Positions 52,524 through 62,104 of a DNA stretch of 64,000 nt are shown in pieces (position 1 is the stretch's first letter; every line of letters begins with the position of its first letter). Under the pieces are notes generated by a model. It saw only the letters and a list, made by a program, of their open reading frames with translations, searched no databases and was not told the DNA's origin. Origin of the DNA: Pseudomonadota bacterium (GTDB lineage: Bacteria; Pseudomonadota; Gammaproteobacteria; Burkholderiales; Thiobacillaceae); contig JAJZTS010000008.1 of NCBI GenBank assembly GCA_021848725.1, positions 1 to 64,000 on the forward strand. The letters are read 5' to 3'. The position numbers and the translations under genes were made by a program.

Positions 52524-52641
52524 CGGTTGTCTAGACACAGCGTATGTAACTACTAGTTGCGCTTAGGCGGTTCGGGCTCGCCCCAGCCGCCGCCGCTACG
52601 TACAATCGAGCGTGCTGCCGCCCAAGCGAGGATTTGCCGAG

Positions 52642-53955
52642 ATGACTCCAAAACCGCCCGAAACCGAGGCCTCTTTCGTCGACTGGTTTCGCTCCGCCGC
52701 GCCCTATATCCACGCCTTTCGGGGCAAGACCTTCGTCATCGCCTTCGGCGGCGATGCGATGTTGCGCAGCGACTTCGTCGATCTGATCCATGACGTGAAC
52801 CTGCTCAATGCCCTGGGCGTGCGCCTGGTGCTGGTGCATGGCGTGCGGCCGCAGGTCGAGGAGCGGCTGAGCGGCGAGGCGCAATATGTGCGTGGCCGGC
52901 GGGTCACCGATGGCGAGACCCTGGAGCATGTGAAGGATGCGGTCGGTTCGGTGCGGGTCGATATCGAGAGCCTGCTCTCCATCGGCCTGCCCAACACGCC
53001 GATGGCCGGGGCCGAGATTCGGGTCGCCTCGGGCAACTTCGTCACCGCCCGGCCGATGGGCGTGCTCGACGGCGTCGATCTGCAATTCACCGGCGAGGTG
53101 CGTAAGGTGGCGGCCGATGCGATCAACGCGCGGTTGGCCGACGGCGAGATCGTGCTGCTGTCGCCGCTCGGCTATTCGCCGACCGGCGAGGTGTTCAATC
53201 TGACCCTGGAGGAGGTGGCGACCGAGGCGGCGATCGCGCTGAAGGCGGAGAAACTCTTGTTCCTGCTCGACCACGGCGACACCGTGGACGAAAAGGGGCG
53301 GCGCCTGAACCAGCTCACCGTGGCCGAGGCGCAAAAAGTGATCAAGCGCTTGCCCGAGGGCGATATGGCGCTTTATTTGCCGTATGCGGCCAAGGCCTGC
53401 AAGGCCGGGGTGCAACGCGCGCACCTGGTCAGCGCCGATGTCGACGGCGCCTTGCTCATGGAGCTGTTCACGCACGAGGGGGTCGGTACCTTGGTCACCG
53501 CCCTGCCGGTGGAGACCTTGCGCCCGGCGACCATCGACGACGTCGGCGGCGTGCTGCAACTGATCGAACCGCTGGAAGAGGCCGGCGTCTTGGTGCGGCG
53601 CTCGCGCGAATTGCTGGAGCAGGAAATCGAGCAGTTTTTTGTCGATGACCTGGACGGCCGCATCGTCGGCTGTGCCGCCCTGTATCCCTTCGCCGGCGAG
53701 CGGGCCGGCGAGATGGCCTGCCTGGCCGTGCACCCGGATTTCCGCGACAGCGGCCGGGGCGAGGCCTTGTTCAAGGCGGTCGAGGCCGCGGCGAAAGCGG
53801 CCAAGCTCAAGCGGCTGTTCGTGCTGACCACGCGCACGGCGCACTGGTTCATCGAGCGGGGCTTTTCGCCGGCCACGCCGGACGACCTGCCGGCGGCGCG
53901 CAAGGAGCTGTACAACTGGCAGCGGCGGTCGAAAGTGTTCGTGAAGGCGATTTGA
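52642..53955 (+). CDS. argA: amino-acid N-acetyltransferase (N-acetylglutamate synthase)
   Basis: 437 residues from ATG 52642, preceded by AGGA. An amino-acid-kinase-like domain (about 25-275; FVIAFGGDAML, LVLVHGVRPQVEERL) is fused to a C-terminal GNAT domain (about 285-437; FRDSGRGEALFKAVEAAAK). That is the classical ArgA layout: the first step of arginine synthesis, with feedback by arginine through the kinase-like domain. HGVRPQ replaces the HGAGPQ of true acetylglutamate kinases, as in other ArgA proteins. A PhnD-family gene follows 2 bp later. Confidence 0.96.
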   Translation: MTPKPPETEASFVDWFRSAAPYIHAFRGKTFVIAFGGDAMLRSDFVDLIHDVNLLNALGVRLVLVHGVRPQVEERLSGEAQYVRGRRVTDGETLEHVKDAVGSVRVDIESLLSIGLPNTPMAGAEIRVASGNFVTARPMGVLDGVDLQFTGEVRKVAADAINARLADGEIVLLSPLGYSPTGEVFNLTLEEVATEAAIALKAEKLLFLLDHGDTVDEKGRRLNQLTVAEAQKVIKRLPEGDMALYLPYAAKACKAGVQRAHLVSADVDGALLMELFTHEGVGTLVTALPVETLRPATIDDVGGVLQLIEPLEEAGVLVRRSRELLEQEIEQFFVDDLDGRIVGCAALYPFAGERAGEMACLAVHPDFRDSGRGEALFKAVEAAAKAAKLKRLFVLTTRTAHWFIERGFSPATPDDLPAARKELYNWQRRSKVFVKAI

Positions 53956-53957
53956 GC

Positions 53958-54809
53958 ATGCTGCGAATGGCTGGGCGGGTGTTGTTGCCGCTGCTGTTGT
54001 TGGCGAACTGCGGCGGCGCATTTGCGGCGGGGGAGAGGCCCTTGGTGTTCGGTCTCTTCCCTAATTTGAGCCCGCGCACCTTGGTGGCGACCTATCAGCC
54101 CATGCGGGATTTTTTGGAAGCCGATCTGGGGCGGCCGGTGGAGCTGGTGACTGCAGCCAACTTCGATGCCTTTACCCGGCGCATGCTGGACAAGGAGTAC
54201 GACCTGATGGTGGCGGCGCCGCACCTGGCAAGGTTGGGCCAACTCGATGCCGGCTACCATTTGTTGGCGCATTACGAGCAACCGATTCAGGCCTGGGTCG
54301 TGGTCGCCGCCGACTCGGGGCTACGCGATACCCGGCAGCTGGCCGGAAAGCGGGTCGCCATACCTGACAGGCTGGCGATTATGTCTTCGCTCGGCGTGGC
54401 GATGCTGGCTAAATCCGGCTTGCAGCTTGATCGGGACTATCAAATGTATGAGGCCAAATCGCATAACAATGCGGCCTTCAGTGTATTGAACCGGCAAGCG
54501 GATGCCGCGGTGATCGGCTCGATCCCCTTCCAGCAATTGACCAAGGAAGTGCAGGATCAATTGCGCGTCATCGAGCAATCCAGGCCCATTCCCAGTCAGT
54601 ATTTCGCGGCCAGCAGCCGGCTGTCCAGCCGGGAGCGGCAGCGGATACTGCGGGCATTGCTTCGTTTCGCCGGCACCGCGGGGGGTAAGCATTTTCTCGC
54701 TCGGTACGGCATGCTCGATATTGTCGTGGCCAAGTCCGACGAACTCAAAGAGATGGACGTCCATGCCAAACAGGTGCGGCAATGGCTGATGGAGACGGCG
54801 GCACCTTGA
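53958..54809 (+). CDS. PhnD-family periplasmic binding protein (module 1)
   Basis: 283 residues. A signal peptide (about 1-24, ending AFA-A) is followed by a PhnD/SsuA-type binding fold: FGLFPNLSPRTLVATYQPM, LGRPVELVTA, DLMVAAPHLARL, and a hinge/C-lobe with LAGKRVAIPD and KSHNNAAFSVLNRQADAAVIG. Relatives bind phosphonates, phosphite or other small oxyanions. There are no ABC permease or ATPase genes nearby; instead its 3' end overlaps a membrane GGDEF-EAL gene by 28 bases, so it is likelier a sensor subunit than a transporter part. Ligand unknown. Paralogous to the gene at 56833. Confidence 0.9.
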   Translation: MLRMAGRVLLPLLLLANCGGAFAAGERPLVFGLFPNLSPRTLVATYQPMRDFLEADLGRPVELVTAANFDAFTRRMLDKEYDLMVAAPHLARLGQLDAGYHLLAHYEQPIQAWVVVAADSGLRDTRQLAGKRVAIPDRLAIMSSLGVAMLAKSGLQLDRDYQMYEAKSHNNAAFSVLNRQADAAVIGSIPFQQLTKEVQDQLRVIEQSRPIPSQYFAASSRLSSRERQRILRALLRFAGTAGGKHFLARYGMLDIVVAKSDELKEMDVHAKQVRQWLMETAAP

Positions 54810-56824
54810 GGACGAAGGCCCCGTTTTTTTTAGGTCTGCGCGGCCGGCTGGTCGCCGGCATCCTGGTCGTGCAGGCGGTGTTGCTGGCCGGCCTGATCTA
54901 CGAGCATATTCGGGATATCGGCGAGCATTTGGGCGATCAGGCGCAATTGCGCGCCCAGCAGTTGACGGTGCTGCTCAATGCATCGCTTGCAACTTATTTG
55001 ATCCAGGCCGACTACGCTGCGGCGCGCGAGGTGCTGGAAGCGACGCGCAGTCAAGCCGGGCTGGCTTATCTACAACTGGTTGGGCCGCGCGGCAATACGA
55101 TCGCGCAGGCCGGCGAATCGCCGAAGCTGCCATCCTCGGTGGTGCCGAATGTGTTCGACGAGAAGGCGGGCCTGTTCGCGACGGCGGTGCCGATCACCAT
55201 GGCGGGGCAGAAGTTGGCCACGCTGTATTTCGGCATGCCCTTGGATTTTCTCGCCAATGCCAAACGGCACGCGTTTTGGGATAGCGTGATGATCGGCCTG
55301 GCCGCCATGCTGATTTCCGCCGCGCTATTGTCGATGCTGACGGTGTGGATCACGCGCCGGCTCGGCCAGCTGACCCGGGCAGCCGACCAAGTGGCGGCGG
55401 GCAACTACGATTTGGATTTACCCTTGGGCCAGCAGGACGAGGTTGGGCGTGCGATCATCGCCTTCAAGCAGATGGCCGAATCGATTCGGGCGCGGGAGGA
55501 GGAGCTGCGGGAATCGCGCAATCATTTGCTGTTTTTGGCCGAGCGCGACAGCCTGACCGGGCTTTATAACCGGCACTATTTCCGGCACGAGATGCAACGC
55601 CGGCTGGACGAGGCCGCGCGCGGCGGTATGGAAGGCGCGCTGTTGTTGTTCGATATCGACGAATTCAAGCTGATCAACGACAGCTTCGGCCATCAGGCCG
55701 GCGACGATATCCTGGTTGCCGTCGCCAATGAGATCGGGCGCATGATTCGCCGTAGCGAGACGTTCTGCCGCCTGGGCGGCGACGAGTTTGTCCTGATCGC
55801 CCACTCGGCTACGGAGGCCGAGGTCTCCACGCTGGCCCAGCGTATCGTCATGACCCTGGGCAATATGCGTTTCGAGATGGAAGGTGGCCAGCAAGTGCGT
55901 TTATCTTGCAGTATGGGGGTGACGCTCTATCCGGCGCACGCCGCAGACCCGGAGACGTTGTTGGCCTATGCCGATGCGGCGATGTACCAGGCCAAGCGCG
56001 CCGGCAAGAATTCATGGCAGCTTTACCGGCCAGAGCGCGACTCGGCTGCAGCCCATCTGGCGATGTTGACGTGGAAAGCGCGCATCGATGCCGCGTTGGA
56101 GATGGGTATGTTCCGGCTGGTGTATCAGGGCGTGTATGCCATGCCGGGCCGGCGGCTGTCCCATGTCGAAGCGCTGCTGCGCATGTACGACGAGGAAACC
56201 GGCCGTTTGGTCACGCCCAATTATTTCATCCCGCTGGCCGAGCGCAGCGGCCAGATTCTCGATATCGACCGCTGGGTGATCCGCGAGTCTATCCGTCAGC
56301 TGAGGCTACACCCGACCATGCCGCCGATTGCGATCAATGTCTCCGGCCGCACTTTCGACGACCCCTCGATCACGGGCTATATCGCCGAGCAACTGCGCGA
56401 GCAGGGGGTGGCGCCCACGCGCTTGGTCGTGGAGCTGACCGAGACCTCCGCGCTGTCGGACTTGGTCGATGCCGAGCGCTTTGTCCGCCAGTTGCGCGAT
56501 CTCGGTTGCCATATTTGCCTGGACGATTTCGGCGCAGGCTTCGCCTCTTTCGCTTATTTGAAACACATCGCCGCCGACACCATCAAGATCGACGGCATGT
56601 TCATCCGCGATTTGACCCACGACGAGCAGAGCCAGGTCTTCGTCAAGGCCATGATCGAGGTGGCGCGGGGGCTGGGCGTGACGACCATCGCCGAATGCGT
56701 CGAAGACGAGGCGACCTTGGCGATGCTGGTCGAGTTTGGGGTCGACTATGTCCAGGGCTATCATTTGTGCAGGCCGCGCGAGGCGCTGCCGGGCATGGGG
56801 GCGAGTTGGGAAGCCGGTCATTAG
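54782..56824 (+). CDS. membrane GGDEF-EAL protein (module 1)
   Basis: 680 residues from ATG 54782; a TTG at 54806, overlapping the upstream stop as TTGA, is an alternative. Membrane helices at about 20-41 and 168-190 enclose a periplasmic domain of about 125 residues. Then come HAMP (about 190-243), GGDEF (332-336 intact, in RLGGDEFVLI) and EAL (VEALLRM, NVSGRTF, ELTETSA, DDFGAGF, IKIDGMF). The inhibitory site is RRSE (323-326) instead of RxxD. Both c-di-GMP synthesis and breakdown look chemically possible. Probably the receptor for the binding protein encoded just upstream. Confidence 0.92.
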   Translation: MADGDGGTLRTKAPFFLGLRGRLVAGILVVQAVLLAGLIYEHIRDIGEHLGDQAQLRAQQLTVLLNASLATYLIQADYAAAREVLEATRSQAGLAYLQLVGPRGNTIAQAGESPKLPSSVVPNVFDEKAGLFATAVPITMAGQKLATLYFGMPLDFLANAKRHAFWDSVMIGLAAMLISAALLSMLTVWITRRLGQLTRAADQVAAGNYDLDLPLGQQDEVGRAIIAFKQMAESIRAREEELRESRNHLLFLAERDSLTGLYNRHYFRHEMQRRLDEAARGGMEGALLLFDIDEFKLINDSFGHQAGDDILVAVANEIGRMIRRSETFCRLGGDEFVLIAHSATEAEVSTLAQRIVMTLGNMRFEMEGGQQVRLSCSMGVTLYPAHAADPETLLAYADAAMYQAKRAGKNSWQLYRPERDSAAAHLAMLTWKARIDAALEMGMFRLVYQGVYAMPGRRLSHVEALLRMYDEETGRLVTPNYFIPLAERSGQILDIDRWVIRESIRQLRLHPTMPPIAINVSGRTFDDPSITGYIAEQLREQGVAPTRLVVELTETSALSDLVDAERFVRQLRDLGCHICLDDFGAGFASFAYLKHIAADTIKIDGMFIRDLTHDEQSQVFVKAMIEVARGLGVTTIAECVEDEATLAMLVEFGVDYVQGYHLCRPREALPGMGASWEAGH

Positions 56825-56832
56825 GGGGCTAT

Positions 56833-57672
56833 ATGAACATGCTGCGAGTTTTGTTGCTAGGGCTTGGCTTAAGCTATGGCGGTGCTGCCATGGCGGCCGA
56901 AACGGCGCCGCTTAAGCTGGGTTTGTTGCCGACCTTGAGCCCGCGTGCCTTGTTGGCCAACTATCAGCCGGTGCGCTTGTATCTAGAACGGGAGTTGGGG
57001 CGGCCGGTGGAGCTGAGCACCGCCGTCGATTTCAGGGCGTTTCATCGCGCCACGATGGCGGGTGATTACGACCTCGTCCTGACCGCGCCGCATCTGGCCC
57101 GTTTGGCCCAGCTCGAGGGCAAGTTCGAACCGATGGCCACCTATACGGCAACCAACCGCGCCGTCTTGGTCATGGCGAAGGAGCGGCCGCTGCGTTCGGC
57201 CTCGGACGTGCGCGGCCAATGCGTGGCGATCTTCGACGAGCATGCCCTTGTCGTGTTGCAAGGTTTGCGCTGGCTGTCGGAGCGGGGGCTCAAGCCTGAT
57301 CTCGATTTCAGGGTGCTGGAAACGCATAGCCACAATAGCGTGGCTCATTCGGTGCTGAGCGGTGAATGCGTGTTGGGCATTACCGCGCCATCGGGCATTA
57401 AGCAGTGGACAGAGGAAGACAGCCGCAGGCTGGGTGTGTTCGCCGAGCTGGCCGAGCAGCAGGCGGTGACCTGGGTGGCGCATCCGCGCCTGGGCGGCAA
57501 ATCGATCAAGCGGATTCGAAGCGCCTTGCTCAAGTTGGGCGATTCGCCGGAAGGTAAGCAGTTTTTCGCGAGCACCGGTTATAAAGGGATGCGCACCGTG
57601 AGTAATCGAGATATGCGCCAGTTGGATAGCTATGCCAAGGAGGTGGGTACCTTGTTGCGCGGCAGGCCATGA
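56833..57672 (+). CDS. PhnD-family periplasmic binding protein (module 2)
   Basis: 279 residues with a signal peptide (cleaved near AAMA-A, residue 21). Segments LGLLPTLSPRALLANYQPV, LGRPVELSTAVDF, DLVLTAPHLARLAQLE and THSHNSVAHSVLSGECVLG align closely with the protein at 53958, so this is a tandem duplicate that has since diverged (for example CVAIFDEHALVV against RVAIPDRLAIMS in the ligand region). It starts 8 bp after the first GGDEF-EAL gene and overlaps the second as ATGA. Ligand unknown, probably different from module 1. Confidence 0.9.
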   Translation: MNMLRVLLLGLGLSYGGAAMAAETAPLKLGLLPTLSPRALLANYQPVRLYLERELGRPVELSTAVDFRAFHRATMAGDYDLVLTAPHLARLAQLEGKFEPMATYTATNRAVLVMAKERPLRSASDVRGQCVAIFDEHALVVLQGLRWLSERGLKPDLDFRVLETHSHNSVAHSVLSGECVLGITAPSGIKQWTEEDSRRLGVFAELAEQQAVTWVAHPRLGGKSIKRIRSALLKLGDSPEGKQFFASTGYKGMRTVSNRDMRQLDSYAKEVGTLLRGRP

Positions 57673-60479
57673 CACGATTCAGATTTTCTCTCCGTAGCCG
57701 TTTGATCGCGGCGGCCGTCTTGGTCGAAGTGGTGGTGATCGGCCTTCTGATGGCGGCGACCTTGCGCACCGCCGACTCCGGCCTCGTCGCGCAGACCCAG
57801 CAGCGGGTCAAGGAGCTCAACGTCTTGCTCAATGCGGCCTTGGCCGCGCCCTTGGCGCAACGCGATTACGCCACCTTGTATGAAATCCTGGGCGAGGTCA
57901 GCCAGAGCAAGGGCTTGTCGTATTTGGTCTTGACCGATCAAAGCGGCAAGGTGGTGGCCTCGGTCAACTGGCCGGCCGGCCGGCCGCTGCCCGTTCCTGG
58001 CCGGTCGCCGGATGAGCGCGAGCTGGTCGACGGCAAGGCCGATCTGGTGTTGCCGATCGAATTGGCAGGCCAGCACTATGGCAACTTGGCCTTTGGCGTG
58101 GCGACGCCGACCCTGTTGGAGACGCGCCGCAATTTGCTGCAGCAGGGGGGGACCGTTACGGTCATCGCGCTGTCTTTGACGGTGATCCTGCTGGCCTTGG
58201 TCGGTTACTGGTTGACGCGGCAACTGGTGGTGCTGGCGAAGGCGTCGGAACGCGTGGCCAGAGGCGATTTCGAGATCGATCTGCCGATCAGGAGCGATGA
58301 TGAGCTGGGGCAATTGACCCGGACCTTCAATGCGATGGCCACGGCGGTGCGCGAGCGTTTGGGCGCGCTGGCCGAGAGCCAGGCGCGATTCCATGCCATC
58401 GCCGATTTCACTTATGACATGGAGTGGTGGCTGTCGCCGCAAGGACGCTTGCTCTGGGTCAACCCGTCGGTGATGCGCATGCTCGGTTATACGCCGGAAG
58501 AATGCCTGGAGATGCCGAGTTTCCCCTTGCCCTTGGTTGCGCCCGGCGACTGGGACGGCGTGCGGCGCGAGCTGGCCCTGGGTCTGGTCGGCAATTCGAT
58601 CACCGACCTCGAGTTTCAATTGAACCGGAAGGGCGGCGGCCAAATTCCGGTCGCCGCAAACTGGCAGCCGATCTTCGATGCCTCGGGCAAGAACATGGGC
58701 CTGCGCGCCAGCCTACGCGAGACGACTGCGCTCAAGGCCAGCGAGCGCAAGTTGCGCGACGCATTGGCCGATCTGAGTCACTCCGAGCATGAGCAGCGTC
58801 GGCAGGCCGAGCGCGCGGAGCAGGAACGTGCGCGTCTGGTCGCGCTGTTGTCGGCGATGAACACCGGCATCTTGTTCGTCGGCAATGACGGCCGCGTGGT
58901 CTATCACAACCCGGCGTTCAATCGCATCTGGATGATCGCGGACCGCGGGCAATTGATCGGGATGTCGGCCACCGACGTGTTGGCCAGTTCGACCAGCGTG
59001 TTGTCGCGGCCGGACCATTTCTCGCGCCACATGCTGGCGGTGCTGGAAACGCGCGAGGTGTCGGACAGCTTCGAGATCCATATGGCCGACGGCCGCGTGG
59101 TGACGCAGTTGAATTACCCGGTGCGCGACAAGGATGGCAAGTTCATCGGCCATTTGTGGATCTACGAGGACGTCACCAACGAGCGGCAGACGGCCGAGCA
59201 GTTGGTTTATCTGGCCGAACGCGATTCGCTGACCGGCCTATTCAATCGCCACCGCTTCCAGCAAGAGATGGGGCGCATGGTCGACGAGTGCGAGCGAAGC
59301 AATATGGTCAGCGCCTTGTTGTTCTTCGACCTCGACGAGTTCAAGGTCATCAACGACAACTTCGGCCATCGTGCCGGCGATGCGCTGCTGATCCGGGTGG
59401 CCGGCGAGGTCGGTGCCTTGATTCGCCGCAACGAAGTGCTGGCCCGGCTGGGTGGCGATGAATTCGCGGTGTTGGTGAACAACACCAACGAAGAGGAGGT
59501 GACGCAGTTGGCCGAGCGCATCGTGCGCGCGGTCGGCCAAATACCGTTCCGCTTCGAGGGCCAGAACCTGCGGCTGACCGCGAGCCTGGGCATCGCCTTG
59601 TACCCGACCCATGCGACCGAGCTGGATGAACTGATCGCCCATGCCGATGCCGCAATGTATCAGGCCAAGTTGGCCGGCAAGAACACCTGGCGCGTCTATC
59701 GTGCCGACCTGGATACGGCGCGCACGATGGCGGCCAGCCTGGGTTGGAACCAGCGTATCGCCAATGCCTTGGAAAACGGTTTGTTGCGCCTGCACTTCCA
59801 GGGGGTCTATCGGACCCTGGACGACGGCATCTCCCACTTGGAGGCGCTGGTGCGCATGGTGGATGAAGAGAATTCCGGCGAATTGATCATGCCGGGGCGT
59901 TTCATTCCGGTGGCGGAGAAGAGCGGCAAGATCCTCAACATCGACCGTTGGGTGCTGGCCGAGAGCGTGCGCCTGCTCCGGGACAATCCGAACATGCGGC
60001 CGCTGGCGGTGAACATCTCCGGCCGTTCGTTCGACGATCCCTCTTTGCCGCAATACATCGGCGACCTGCTGCGCGAGGCGAAGGTGGAGCCGAAGCGCCT
60101 GATCGTCGAGCTGACCGAGACCAGTGCGGTGTCCGATCTGGCCGACGCCCAGCGCTTCATCGAGGCCTTGCGCGTAACCGGTTGCGGCATCTGCCTGGAC
60201 GATTTCGGCAGCGGTTTCGCCTCGTTCGCTTACCTCAAGCACTTGGCGGTAGACACGGTGAAGATCGACGGCCTGTTCATCCGCAACCTGCCGCACGACC
60301 ACGACAACCAGGTCTTCGTCAGGGCCATCGTCGATGTCGCGCGCGGCATGGGCAAGCAGACGGTGGCGGAATTCGTCGAGGATGCGGCAACGCTGGCCAT
60401 GCTGCGGGAATTCGGCGTCGATATGGTGCAAGGCTATTTCTTGGACAAGCCGCGGGCCGACCACCCCGCCCTCGGGTAA
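57669..60479 (+). CDS. membrane PAS-GGDEF-EAL protein (module 2)
   Basis: 936 residues. Helices at about 11-31 and 162-183 enclose a periplasmic domain similar in pattern to module 1. HAMP (about 183-235) is followed by two PAS domains (about 240-355, 385-505), GGDEF (595-599, RLGGDEFAVL) and EAL (Glu725-Ala-Leu; NISGRSF, ELTETSA, DDFGSGF at 844-850, VKIDGLF). The inhibitory site is again R-x-x-E (586-589). Compared with module 1 the PAS pair is an addition, possibly sensing a second, cytoplasmic cue. It overlaps the binding-protein gene by 4 bases. Confidence 0.93.
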   Translation: MTRFRFSLRSRLIAAAVLVEVVVIGLLMAATLRTADSGLVAQTQQRVKELNVLLNAALAAPLAQRDYATLYEILGEVSQSKGLSYLVLTDQSGKVVASVNWPAGRPLPVPGRSPDERELVDGKADLVLPIELAGQHYGNLAFGVATPTLLETRRNLLQQGGTVTVIALSLTVILLALVGYWLTRQLVVLAKASERVARGDFEIDLPIRSDDELGQLTRTFNAMATAVRERLGALAESQARFHAIADFTYDMEWWLSPQGRLLWVNPSVMRMLGYTPEECLEMPSFPLPLVAPGDWDGVRRELALGLVGNSITDLEFQLNRKGGGQIPVAANWQPIFDASGKNMGLRASLRETTALKASERKLRDALADLSHSEHEQRRQAERAEQERARLVALLSAMNTGILFVGNDGRVVYHNPAFNRIWMIADRGQLIGMSATDVLASSTSVLSRPDHFSRHMLAVLETREVSDSFEIHMADGRVVTQLNYPVRDKDGKFIGHLWIYEDVTNERQTAEQLVYLAERDSLTGLFNRHRFQQEMGRMVDECERSNMVSALLFFDLDEFKVINDNFGHRAGDALLIRVAGEVGALIRRNEVLARLGGDEFAVLVNNTNEEEVTQLAERIVRAVGQIPFRFEGQNLRLTASLGIALYPTHATELDELIAHADAAMYQAKLAGKNTWRVYRADLDTARTMAASLGWNQRIANALENGLLRLHFQGVYRTLDDGISHLEALVRMVDEENSGELIMPGRFIPVAEKSGKILNIDRWVLAESVRLLRDNPNMRPLAVNISGRSFDDPSLPQYIGDLLREAKVEPKRLIVELTETSAVSDLADAQRFIEALRVTGCGICLDDFGSGFASFAYLKHLAVDTVKIDGLFIRNLPHDHDNQVFVRAIVDVARGMGKQTVAEFVEDAATLAMLREFGVDMVQGYFLDKPRADHPALG

Positions 60480-60511
60480 AATACGCCTTCAATTAGTGTG
60501 AAGGTCTTGTT

Positions 60512-62104
60512 GTGCTTACCGTTTCCAATCTTTCTATCCAGTTCGGGGCCAAGCCCCTGTTCGAAAACGTCTCCGTCAAGTTCGGCGAGGGCAACCGTTA
60601 CGGCCTGATCGGCGCCAACGGCTGCGGCAAGTCGACCTTCATGAAGATCCTGGCCGGTGTGCTGGACTCCACCGCCGGCAACGTTTCCATCGACCCGGGC
60701 GAGCGCATGGCCTTCCTGCGCCAGGACCAGTTCGCCTACGAGGACGTGCGCGTGCTCGACGTGGTGATGATGGGCCATGCCGAGCTGTGGCAGATCCAGG
60801 AAGAGAAAAACGCCATCTACATGAACCCGGAGGCGAGCGAGGAGGACTACATGCGCGCCGCCGAGCTGGAGGGAAAGTTCGGCGAGCTGGGCGGCTATGA
60901 CGCCGAGGCGCGCGCCGGCGAACTGCTGCTCGGTGTCGGCATCCCGACCGAGAAGCACAACGGCCCGATGCGCGAGGTGGCGCCGGGCTGGAAGCTGCGC
61001 GTGCTGCTGACCCAGGCCCTGTTCGCCGACCCGGACATCCTGCTGCTCGACGAGCCGACCAACAACCTGGACATCAATACCATCCGCTGGCTGGAGCACG
61101 TGCTGAACGAGCGCAACTCCACCATGATCATCATCTCGCACGACCGCCATTTCCTGAACTCGGTCTGTACCCACATGGCCGACCTCGACTACCAGACCTT
61201 GCGGGTCTATCCGGGCAACTACGACGACTATATGGAGGCCTCGACCCTGGCCCGCGAGCGTCAAGTGGCGGCGAGCGCCAAGGCCAAGGAGAAGGTGGCC
61301 GAACTGGAGGAGTTCGTCCGTCGCTTCCGCGCCAACAAATCCAAGGCGCGCCAGGCCACCAGCCGGATGAAGATGATCGACAAGATCAAGGTCGAGGACG
61401 TCAAGCCGTCGTCGCGGCAGAACCCCTATATCCGCTTCGAGCAGGAGAAGCCCTTGTACCGCCGGGTGATCGAGGTGCAGAAGCTACAGGCCGGCTACGA
61501 CGGGCCGCTGTTCAATAACCTCAACTTCGTGGTCGATGCCGGCGACAAGGTCGCCATCATCGGCGAGAACGGCGTCGGCAAGACCACCCTGCTGCGTACC
61601 CTGATCGGCGAGCTGGCGCCGCAAGCGGGCGAGATCAAGTGGGCGGAGAACGCCAAGGTCGGCTATTTCGCCCAGGACCACGCCGCCGATTTCGCCAGCG
61701 ACATGCCGCTGTTCGACTGGATGAAGGACTGCGGCCAGGCCGGCGACGACGACCAAGTCATCCGCGGCGTTCTCGGCCGCCTGCTGTTCTCCGGCGACGA
61801 CGTGAAAAAGCCGGTCAAGGTGATCTCCGGCGGCGAGCAGGGCCGCATGCTGTTCGGCCGCTTGATGCTGCACCGAGGCAATGTGCTGGTGTTGGACGAG
61901 CCGACCAATCACCTGGACATGGAATCGATCGAATCGCTCAACCTGGGCTTAGAGAAGTTTCCGGGTACGGTGCTGTTCGTGTCGCACGACCGCCAGTTCG
62001 TCAGCTCGCTAGCGAACAAGATCATCGAACTCAAAATCGACGGCACGCATATGGTCTACGACGGCAACTACGAAGACTACCTGGCCAGCCAGGGCTTGGA
62101 GTAA
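60512..62104 (+). CDS. ybiT: ABC-F family ATPase YbiT
   Basis: 530 residues with a GTG start, exactly the length of E. coli YbiT and similar along its whole length. Two ABC domains are present (Walker A GANGCGKS and GENGVGKT), with the first signature replaced by [12 protein letters not shown] and the second SGGEQGRM, and a linker (about 245-320) rich in Lys and Arg. Paired [11 protein letters not shown] and [10 protein letters not shown] motifs close the sites. There is no membrane domain: ABC-F proteins act on ribosomes as translation factors, not as transporters. Confidence 0.94.

Follow-up and report, generated by a model that had tools for sequence, protein, structure and literature searches.

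Introduction

For most GGDEF-EAL receptors, to our knowledge, no signal has been identified. The principle that a binding protein gates such a receptor is already known, as in the NspS-MbaA system of Vibrio cholerae, also present in Sinorhizobium meliloti (PMC8967002, PMC9993111). Arginine is a known cue for cyclic di-GMP (c-di-GMP) signaling via other binding modules, ArtI-STM1987 and RmcA (PMC8846402, PMC7423604). A census from 2022 states that work on c-di-GMP networks had covered SBP_bac_3 alone among the 27 periplasmic-binding-protein families (PMC8846402). Here, we analyze a 64,000-nucleotide stretch of contig JAJZTS010000008.1 (hereafter the window) from a Thiobacillaceae genome (assembly GCA_021848725.1). 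In the window, argA is followed by two successive pairs of genes, each encoding a PhnD-family (PF12974) periplasmic binding protein (PhnD1, PhnD2) and a membrane GGDEF-EAL protein (receptors 1 and 2).

We consider it likely that each pair forms a two-protein receptor in which the PhnD-family protein gates a bifunctional c-di-GMP receptor, in the manner of NspS-MbaA and with a sensor like that of AioX-AioS. Many bacterial families conserve this pairing, which seems to be undescribed. A literature search for PhnD or phosphonate-binding proteins, or argA, in combination with GGDEF or c-di-GMP retrieved no description of the pairing or of a link to argA, most subscription papers lying outside its coverage.

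PhnD-family proteins as probable sensors

The two pairs occupy positions 53958-60479. A preliminary description of this DNA gave their layout exactly: phnD1 and the receptor 1 gene share 28 bases, the gap between receptor 1 and phnD2 is 8 bases, and phnD2 and the receptor 2 gene share 4. Two bases separate the end of argA, a gene absent from that description, from the start of phnD1. Pfam searches bore out the assigned families, with PF12974 the sole confident binding-protein family covering the full length of PhnD1 and PhnD2, membrane GGDEF-EAL proteins as partners, and PAS domains in the second receptor only. As also stated earlier, no gene for an ATP-binding cassette (ABC) transporter, whether permease or ATPase, lies beside the pairs; the ABC-F gene downstream of receptor 2 (60512-62104) encodes a relative of translation factors rather than a transporter.

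Each of the four clear PF12974 genes in this genome lies next to a gene for a membrane GGDEF protein; the partners of the other two are a GGDEF-only protein (L001) and a HAMP-PAS-GGDEF-EAL protein (L004/L051). The genome carries 30 GGDEF genes in about 2.4 Mb; on the basis of about 60 neighbor slots among about 2400 genes, the chance of four such adjacencies in four is roughly estimated at <1e-6. Six BPD_transp_1 permeases are encoded, none sharing a contig with PhnD genes. No PhnE exceeded the cut-off in this genome or in five relatives of the same genus, and the single-contig genome G003, with nine PF12974 matches, gave no PhnE match even at E 1e-3. Neither PhnC nor PhnE is adjacent to the PhnD genes of the window, PhnE having been sought genome-wide and PhnC not.

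To place these pairs in context, we surveyed the neighborhoods of PhnD domains in the Thiobacillaceae-like family (115 domains, 22 genomes), using purpose-built hidden Markov models to class the neighbors and domain-based coordinates. The association with GGDEF-EAL genes is kept in related genomes: 38 of the 115 domains adjoin a GGDEF(-EAL) gene and a further 12 belong to a fused chain with GGDEF, while 33 adjoin a histidine kinase and three are fused to one. A single domain lies beside an ABC transporter. The remaining 28, five of them near contig ends, lack neighbors of all these kinds. Pfam confirmed the fusions sampled among relatives, both PhnD-PAS-GGDEF(-EAL) and PhnD-histidine kinase. 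PF12974 is mainly a sensor domain in this family, and its partner type has switched repeatedly. The annotation “phosphate/phosphonate ABC transporter substrate-binding protein” is misleading in these bacteria, where 86 of the 115 domains occur with signaling proteins against that one with a transporter.

PhnD1 and PhnD2 fall in a clade of 25 rows (support 100/100), of which 21 are beside GGDEF-EAL, and this clade lies apart from both the PtxB/PhnD transport group and the ArrX group. Both proteins score below the cut-offs of the NCBIfam models TIGR03431 (PhnD; 57 bits for PhnD1 and 31 for PhnD2, cut-off 261) and TIGR01098 (transporter substrate-binding protein; 83 and 46 bits, cut-off 112). It is very improbable that they are orphan uptake parts for an ABC transporter encoded elsewhere, placed beside GGDEF-EAL genes incidentally. 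Membership in a Pfam family of phosphonate transport binding proteins and the PtxB/PhnD fold would suit such a role, but PhnE is absent from the genus, including the single-contig genome, the linkage is conserved and extends to direct GGDEF/EAL fusions, and the oxyanion site is lost, in addition to the low NCBIfam scores. The earlier proposal of a non-transport PhnD-family protein working with a GGDEF-EAL receptor, as NspS does with MbaA, is upheld by the conserved adjacency and the natural single-chain fusions, and the search for a transporter elsewhere, with no PhnE over the cut-off in genome or genus, did not refute it.

Other arrangements occur among the surveyed relatives. Two PhnD-PAS-GGDEF-EAL fusions (L064:4355-7684, L104:1903-5559) end in a CZB (zinc-binding) domain and may combine a periplasmic ligand with a cytoplasmic zinc or redox cue in one chain. 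Tandem PhnD-family genes were found at L058, L110, L118 and L140 with no transporter, kinase or GGDEF gene found as neighbor, and a related single gene at L068 adjoins the gene of a Roadblock/LC7-domain protein.

Binding pocket

The AlphaFold2 model of PhnD1 (pLDDT 91) has the PhnD fold, and its nearest solved structures are PtxB, PhnD, ArrX, HtxB and AioX (Z 23.6-28.6). We mapped the oxyanion-binding positions of PhnD and AioX (PMC5908839) onto the family by alignment. The pocket columns read F-A-L-A-I-M-H in PhnD1 and F-A-L-A-L-V-H in PhnD2, with the histidine alone kept and the Ser-Thr-Ser oxyanion columns occupied by Ala-Ile-Met and Ala-Leu-Val, respectively. Transport-linked relatives have the pocket Y-G-S/T-S-T-S-H, and one histidine-kinase-linked group has an AioX-like pocket, Y-C-P-S-N-x-H.

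In AioX, ArrX and ArxX, the pocket is formed by Tyr88, Cys106, Tyr131, Ser161, Ser163, His192 and Asp210 (PMC5908839). Across the columns mapped for this comparison (Tyr88, Cys106, Ser161, Ser163 and His192, with Tyr131 and Asp210 outside the mapping), the window proteins keep the histidine, replace Tyr88 by Phe and Cys106 by Ala, and have Ala and Met/Val in place of Ser161/163. The alignment makes it unlikely that the ligand is held as phosphonate, phosphite or arsenite are held. Because the Ser-Thr-Ser residues are gone, phosphonate is itself an unlikely ligand, and the phosphonates, phosphite and sulfonates suggested in the preliminary description lose their place as first choices.

Seven PhnD-family loci of relatives (L063, L077, L078, L080, L103, L123, L135) adjoin short histidine kinases and have the AioX-like pocket, with Cys at the Cys106 column and Ser-Asn. 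From these residues, they are probable arsenic oxyanion sensors.

Receptors

The receptors have two hydrophobic segments flanking a periplasmic domain of about 125 residues. AlphaFold2 predicts a Cache-like topology for this domain, and sCache_3_2 matches weakly in 9 of 30 receptors; the fold class is assigned from predicted topology and these weak Pfam matches, the list of fold matches being filled by the GGDEF-EAL part. The closest solved GGDEF-EAL folds include PA0861/RbdA, MorA and PA0575/RmcA. In all 33 argA-linked receptors examined, the GGDEF motif is intact and so are all the EAL catalytic residues that were checked, although the EAL motif reads EVL in seven. The inhibitory site is RxxE instead of RxxD in all 33, with the active site intact.

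One alternative is that the EAL half dominates, so that the receptors are ligand-controlled phosphodiesterases in which GGDEF is only a GTP-sensing regulator. This arrangement is common in hybrid GGDEF-EAL proteins and agrees with the nearest solved relatives. Against it, the universally intact GGDEF motif and RxxE site suggest that synthesis matters, and MbaA shows that use of both activities is possible (PMC8967002). We regard EAL dominance as somewhat unlikely.

PAS domains are present in 27 of the 30 receptors. Whereas receptor 2 was previously described as having gained two PAS domains, receptor 1 most likely lost them: only the module 1 receptors of this genus (three of the 30) are without PAS, and loss is the simpler account of the domain distribution.

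Linkage with argA

In a first sample, argA lies immediately upstream of the module on the same strand in 16 genomes. A wider sample came from a profile search over 200 genomes of the order, 48 of which contain the PhnD clade; linkage was scored by hand, comparing the clade matches with argA coordinates and with fetched loci. On this basis, 27 of the 48 genomes, from 12 families, have argA on the same strand at a distance of at most about 1.3 kb, or one gene off, and linkage could not be judged in three. A GGDEF-EAL gene follows in every fetched argA-linked locus uncut by a contig end. In two genomes, phnD has moved to one gene upstream of argA and the receptor gene is still directly downstream. 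A contig scan with a narrower PhnD alignment identified 16 named loci. Its clade members come from metagenome genomes of Thiobacillaceae, Thiobacillus and Hydrogenophilaceae, and more distant relatives in Reyranella and Rhodospirillales adjoin histidine kinases. We sought a shared neighbor other than argA for the argA-unlinked GGDEF-EAL members and found none.

The tight packing of these genes into one string makes it probable that the sensor is expressed together with argA, which encodes the first enzyme of arginine synthesis. We tentatively consider, as a possibility of rather low probability, that argA-phnD-GGDEF/EAL is a conserved proteobacterial operon tying arginine supply to lifestyle. 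The PhnD protein, devoid of its oxyanion site, would sense an external arginine-related metabolite (arginine, ornithine, glutamate, N-acetylglutamate or polyamine) and switch a bifunctional c-di-GMP enzyme expressed with argA. We offer a possible role of the argA-tied sensor in reporting arginine-related nutrients as a lead and not as a finding.

There is an even chance that the link is a passive one, in which the module settled once behind argA in an ancestor and was kept there by a stable spot, with no tie to arginine. In most of these genomes rsmE is likewise kept upstream of argA, several have an ettA-like gene downstream, argA occurs without the module in the majority of genomes of the order, and the pocket is not constant among argA-linked members. 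However, the linkage holds across the 12 families and despite other upstream neighbors of argA, there being no rsmE within 3 kb in G016, G023 and G035 and an EAL gene upstream in G091 and G172. The two genomes with phnD one gene upstream also speak against passive retention, since both parts of the module still flank argA.

The number of binding proteins per receptor varies at some loci. L198:2423-9452 reads argA-phnD-phnD-phnD-GGDEF/EAL, with three binding proteins to one receptor, and two phnD genes lie between argA and one GGDEF-EAL receptor gene at L200:1004-7044 and L128:1621-7664. These gene orders look as though binding proteins compete for one receptor. At L209:3320-5878, argA is followed by a single open reading frame in which the beginning of a PhnD domain runs on into GGDEF-EAL; it is either a true truncated fusion or an assembly frameshift.

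Origin of the two pairs

The preliminary description interpreted the pairs as a tandem duplication. PhnD1 and PhnD2 share 37% identity; for the two receptors, the value is 59% in the GGDEF-EAL region and 33% in the N-terminal sensor part. In both the receptor tree and the binding-protein tree, module 2 clusters with other genera, and module 1 forms a lineage found in this genus only. We rejected a recent tandem copy because both trees separate the modules in this way; as placed in these trees, the pairs are separate older lineages, that is, old paralogues brought or kept together.

Proposed mechanism

In the proposed mechanism, a soluble periplasmic protein of the PhnD fold would bind a small molecule and close, and the closed form would dock on its GGDEF-EAL partner at the periplasmic, sCache-like domain. 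From there, the movement would pass through the second transmembrane segment and HAMP, and in receptor 2 also through PAS, and would shift the balance between making (GGDEF) and degrading (EAL) c-di-GMP; the direction of the shift and the dual activity are presumed. By analogy with NspS-MbaA, the loaded binding protein probably docks and biases its receptor between synthesis and breakdown. The binding proteins would feed no transporter, the two diverged pairs side by side would give two inputs into c-di-GMP, and the sensor would be co-transcribed with argA.

Divergence rates provide a further, suggestive test. Compared with argA and the catalytic half, both PhnD and the periplasmic domain of the receptor diverge at about three times the rate. 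Once argA is corrected for, the distances of these two are still correlated (partial r 0.41, a value reached in 0 of 500 permutations). Several points weigh against the reading as paired, argA-tied receptors. The partial r of PhnD with the catalytic half is 0.34, and since 0.41 is only a little higher, the correlation may partly reflect linkage; we take this test of co-evolution as suggestive only. The genome is 89% complete, so absence of a transporter is not proven for this genome alone. A few members of the PhnD1/2 clade adjoin histidine kinases, and the clade gene is not beside argA in 18 of the 48 genomes. Finally, the pocket differs among argA-linked members (F-A-L-A-x-x-H versus Y-G-T-T-x-T-H), so one shared ligand is not assured and, to judge from these residues, argA-linked lineages may sense differing compounds.

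The conserved operons and natural fusions tie a second binding-protein family, PF12974, to c-di-GMP. In addition, one PF12974 clade is tied to a named metabolic gene, argA, which makes the ligand search concrete.

Features of the window

Coordinates are summarized in Table 1. The gene string may plausibly end at a weak terminator-like hairpin right after the receptor 2 gene (60485-60505). In scans for promoters and terminators, sites were no commoner than in shuffles, and an Rfam scan returned one tRNA and nothing else.

Table 1. Genes and domains of the argA-linked gene string.
Feature	Position	Strand	Evidence and remarks
argA, N-acetylglutamate synthase	52612..53955	+	TIGR01890, 583 bits against cut-off 203; first gene of tight string
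phnD1, PhnD-family periplasmic binding protein 1, signal peptide-like N terminus	53958..54809	+	283 amino acids; PF12974 E=8e-49
GGDEF-EAL receptor 1 (transmembrane segment, periplasmic domain, transmembrane segment, HAMP, GGDEF, EAL; without PAS)	54782..56824	+	680 amino acids; Pfam, hydrophobic segments, AlphaFold2
Receptor 1 periplasmic sensor domain, predicted sCache-like topology (long helix, helix, four strands)	54908..55276	+	Two hydrophobic segments; AlphaFold2 secondary structure; weak sCache_3_2/CHASE8 matches in relatives
GGDEF domain 1	55541..56011	+	Motif intact; RxxE replaces RxxD
EAL domain 1	56081..56776	+	Catalytic residues intact
phnD2, PhnD-family periplasmic binding protein 2	56833..57672	+	279 amino acids; PF12974 E=2e-41
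PAS-PAS-GGDEF-EAL membrane receptor 2	57669..60479	+	936 amino acids; HAMP, PAS, GGDEF, EAL by Pfam
Receptor 2 periplasmic sensor domain	57759..58133	+	Weak sCache_3_2 match E=0.004; hydrophobic segments
Receptor 2 PAS domains (two)	58383..59189	+	PAS_3/PAS_9 at residues 239-355; PAS_4 at 389-507
GGDEF domain 2	59217..59684	+	Intact; RxxE
EAL domain 2	59751..60452	+	Intact

Comparison with known systems

The arrangement proposed here by analogy is that of NspS-MbaA, in which the periplasmic binding protein is separate from the membrane-bound, bifunctional GGDEF-EAL receptor that it gates (PMC8967002). The window receptors resemble MbaA in having two transmembrane segments, a periplasmic domain and GGDEF-EAL with active residues. 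The binding proteins differ, NspS being a PotD-like polyamine binder and those of the window belonging to PF12974. MbaA has the motifs SGDEF and EVL, whereas GGDEF and EAL are found here (apart from the seven EVL receptors among 33), and no argA linkage was found for NspS-MbaA (PMC8967002, PMC9993111). ScrB-ScrC was also considered as a precedent, but ScrB could not be assigned to a binding-protein family.

The arsenic oxyanion sensors AioX-AioS, ArrX-ArrS and ArxX-ArxS share with the window pairs a non-transport periplasmic protein of the PhnD fold adjoining a membrane signaling protein (PMC5908839), and the predicted fold of PhnD1 matches AioX and ArrX (Z 23.6-25.6). Their partner is a histidine kinase rather than a GGDEF-EAL protein. 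The AioX-type pocket has Cys106 and Ser-Asn-Ser (PMC5908839), in place of which Ala/Pro and Ala-hydrophobic-hydrophobic are found here. The phosphite, phosphonate and hypophosphite ABC transporter proteins PtxB, PhnD and HtxB have the same Pfam family and fold; they feed PhnC/PhnE-type transporters and hold oxyanions by Ser-Thr-Ser, neither of which applies to the window proteins.

Periplasmic binding modules link L-arginine to c-di-GMP in ArtI-STM1987 of Salmonella and RmcA of Pseudomonas aeruginosa (PMC8846402, PMC7423604), and the GGDEF-EAL part of PA0575/RmcA is among the closest folds to the window receptor. The modules of both systems are of the SBP_bac_3 type, unlike PhnD1 and PhnD2, and ArtI has a second role with an ABC transporter. 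In RmcA, module and receptor form one chain, whereas binding domain and GGDEF-EAL are encoded by separate genes in the window and by fused forms in relatives.

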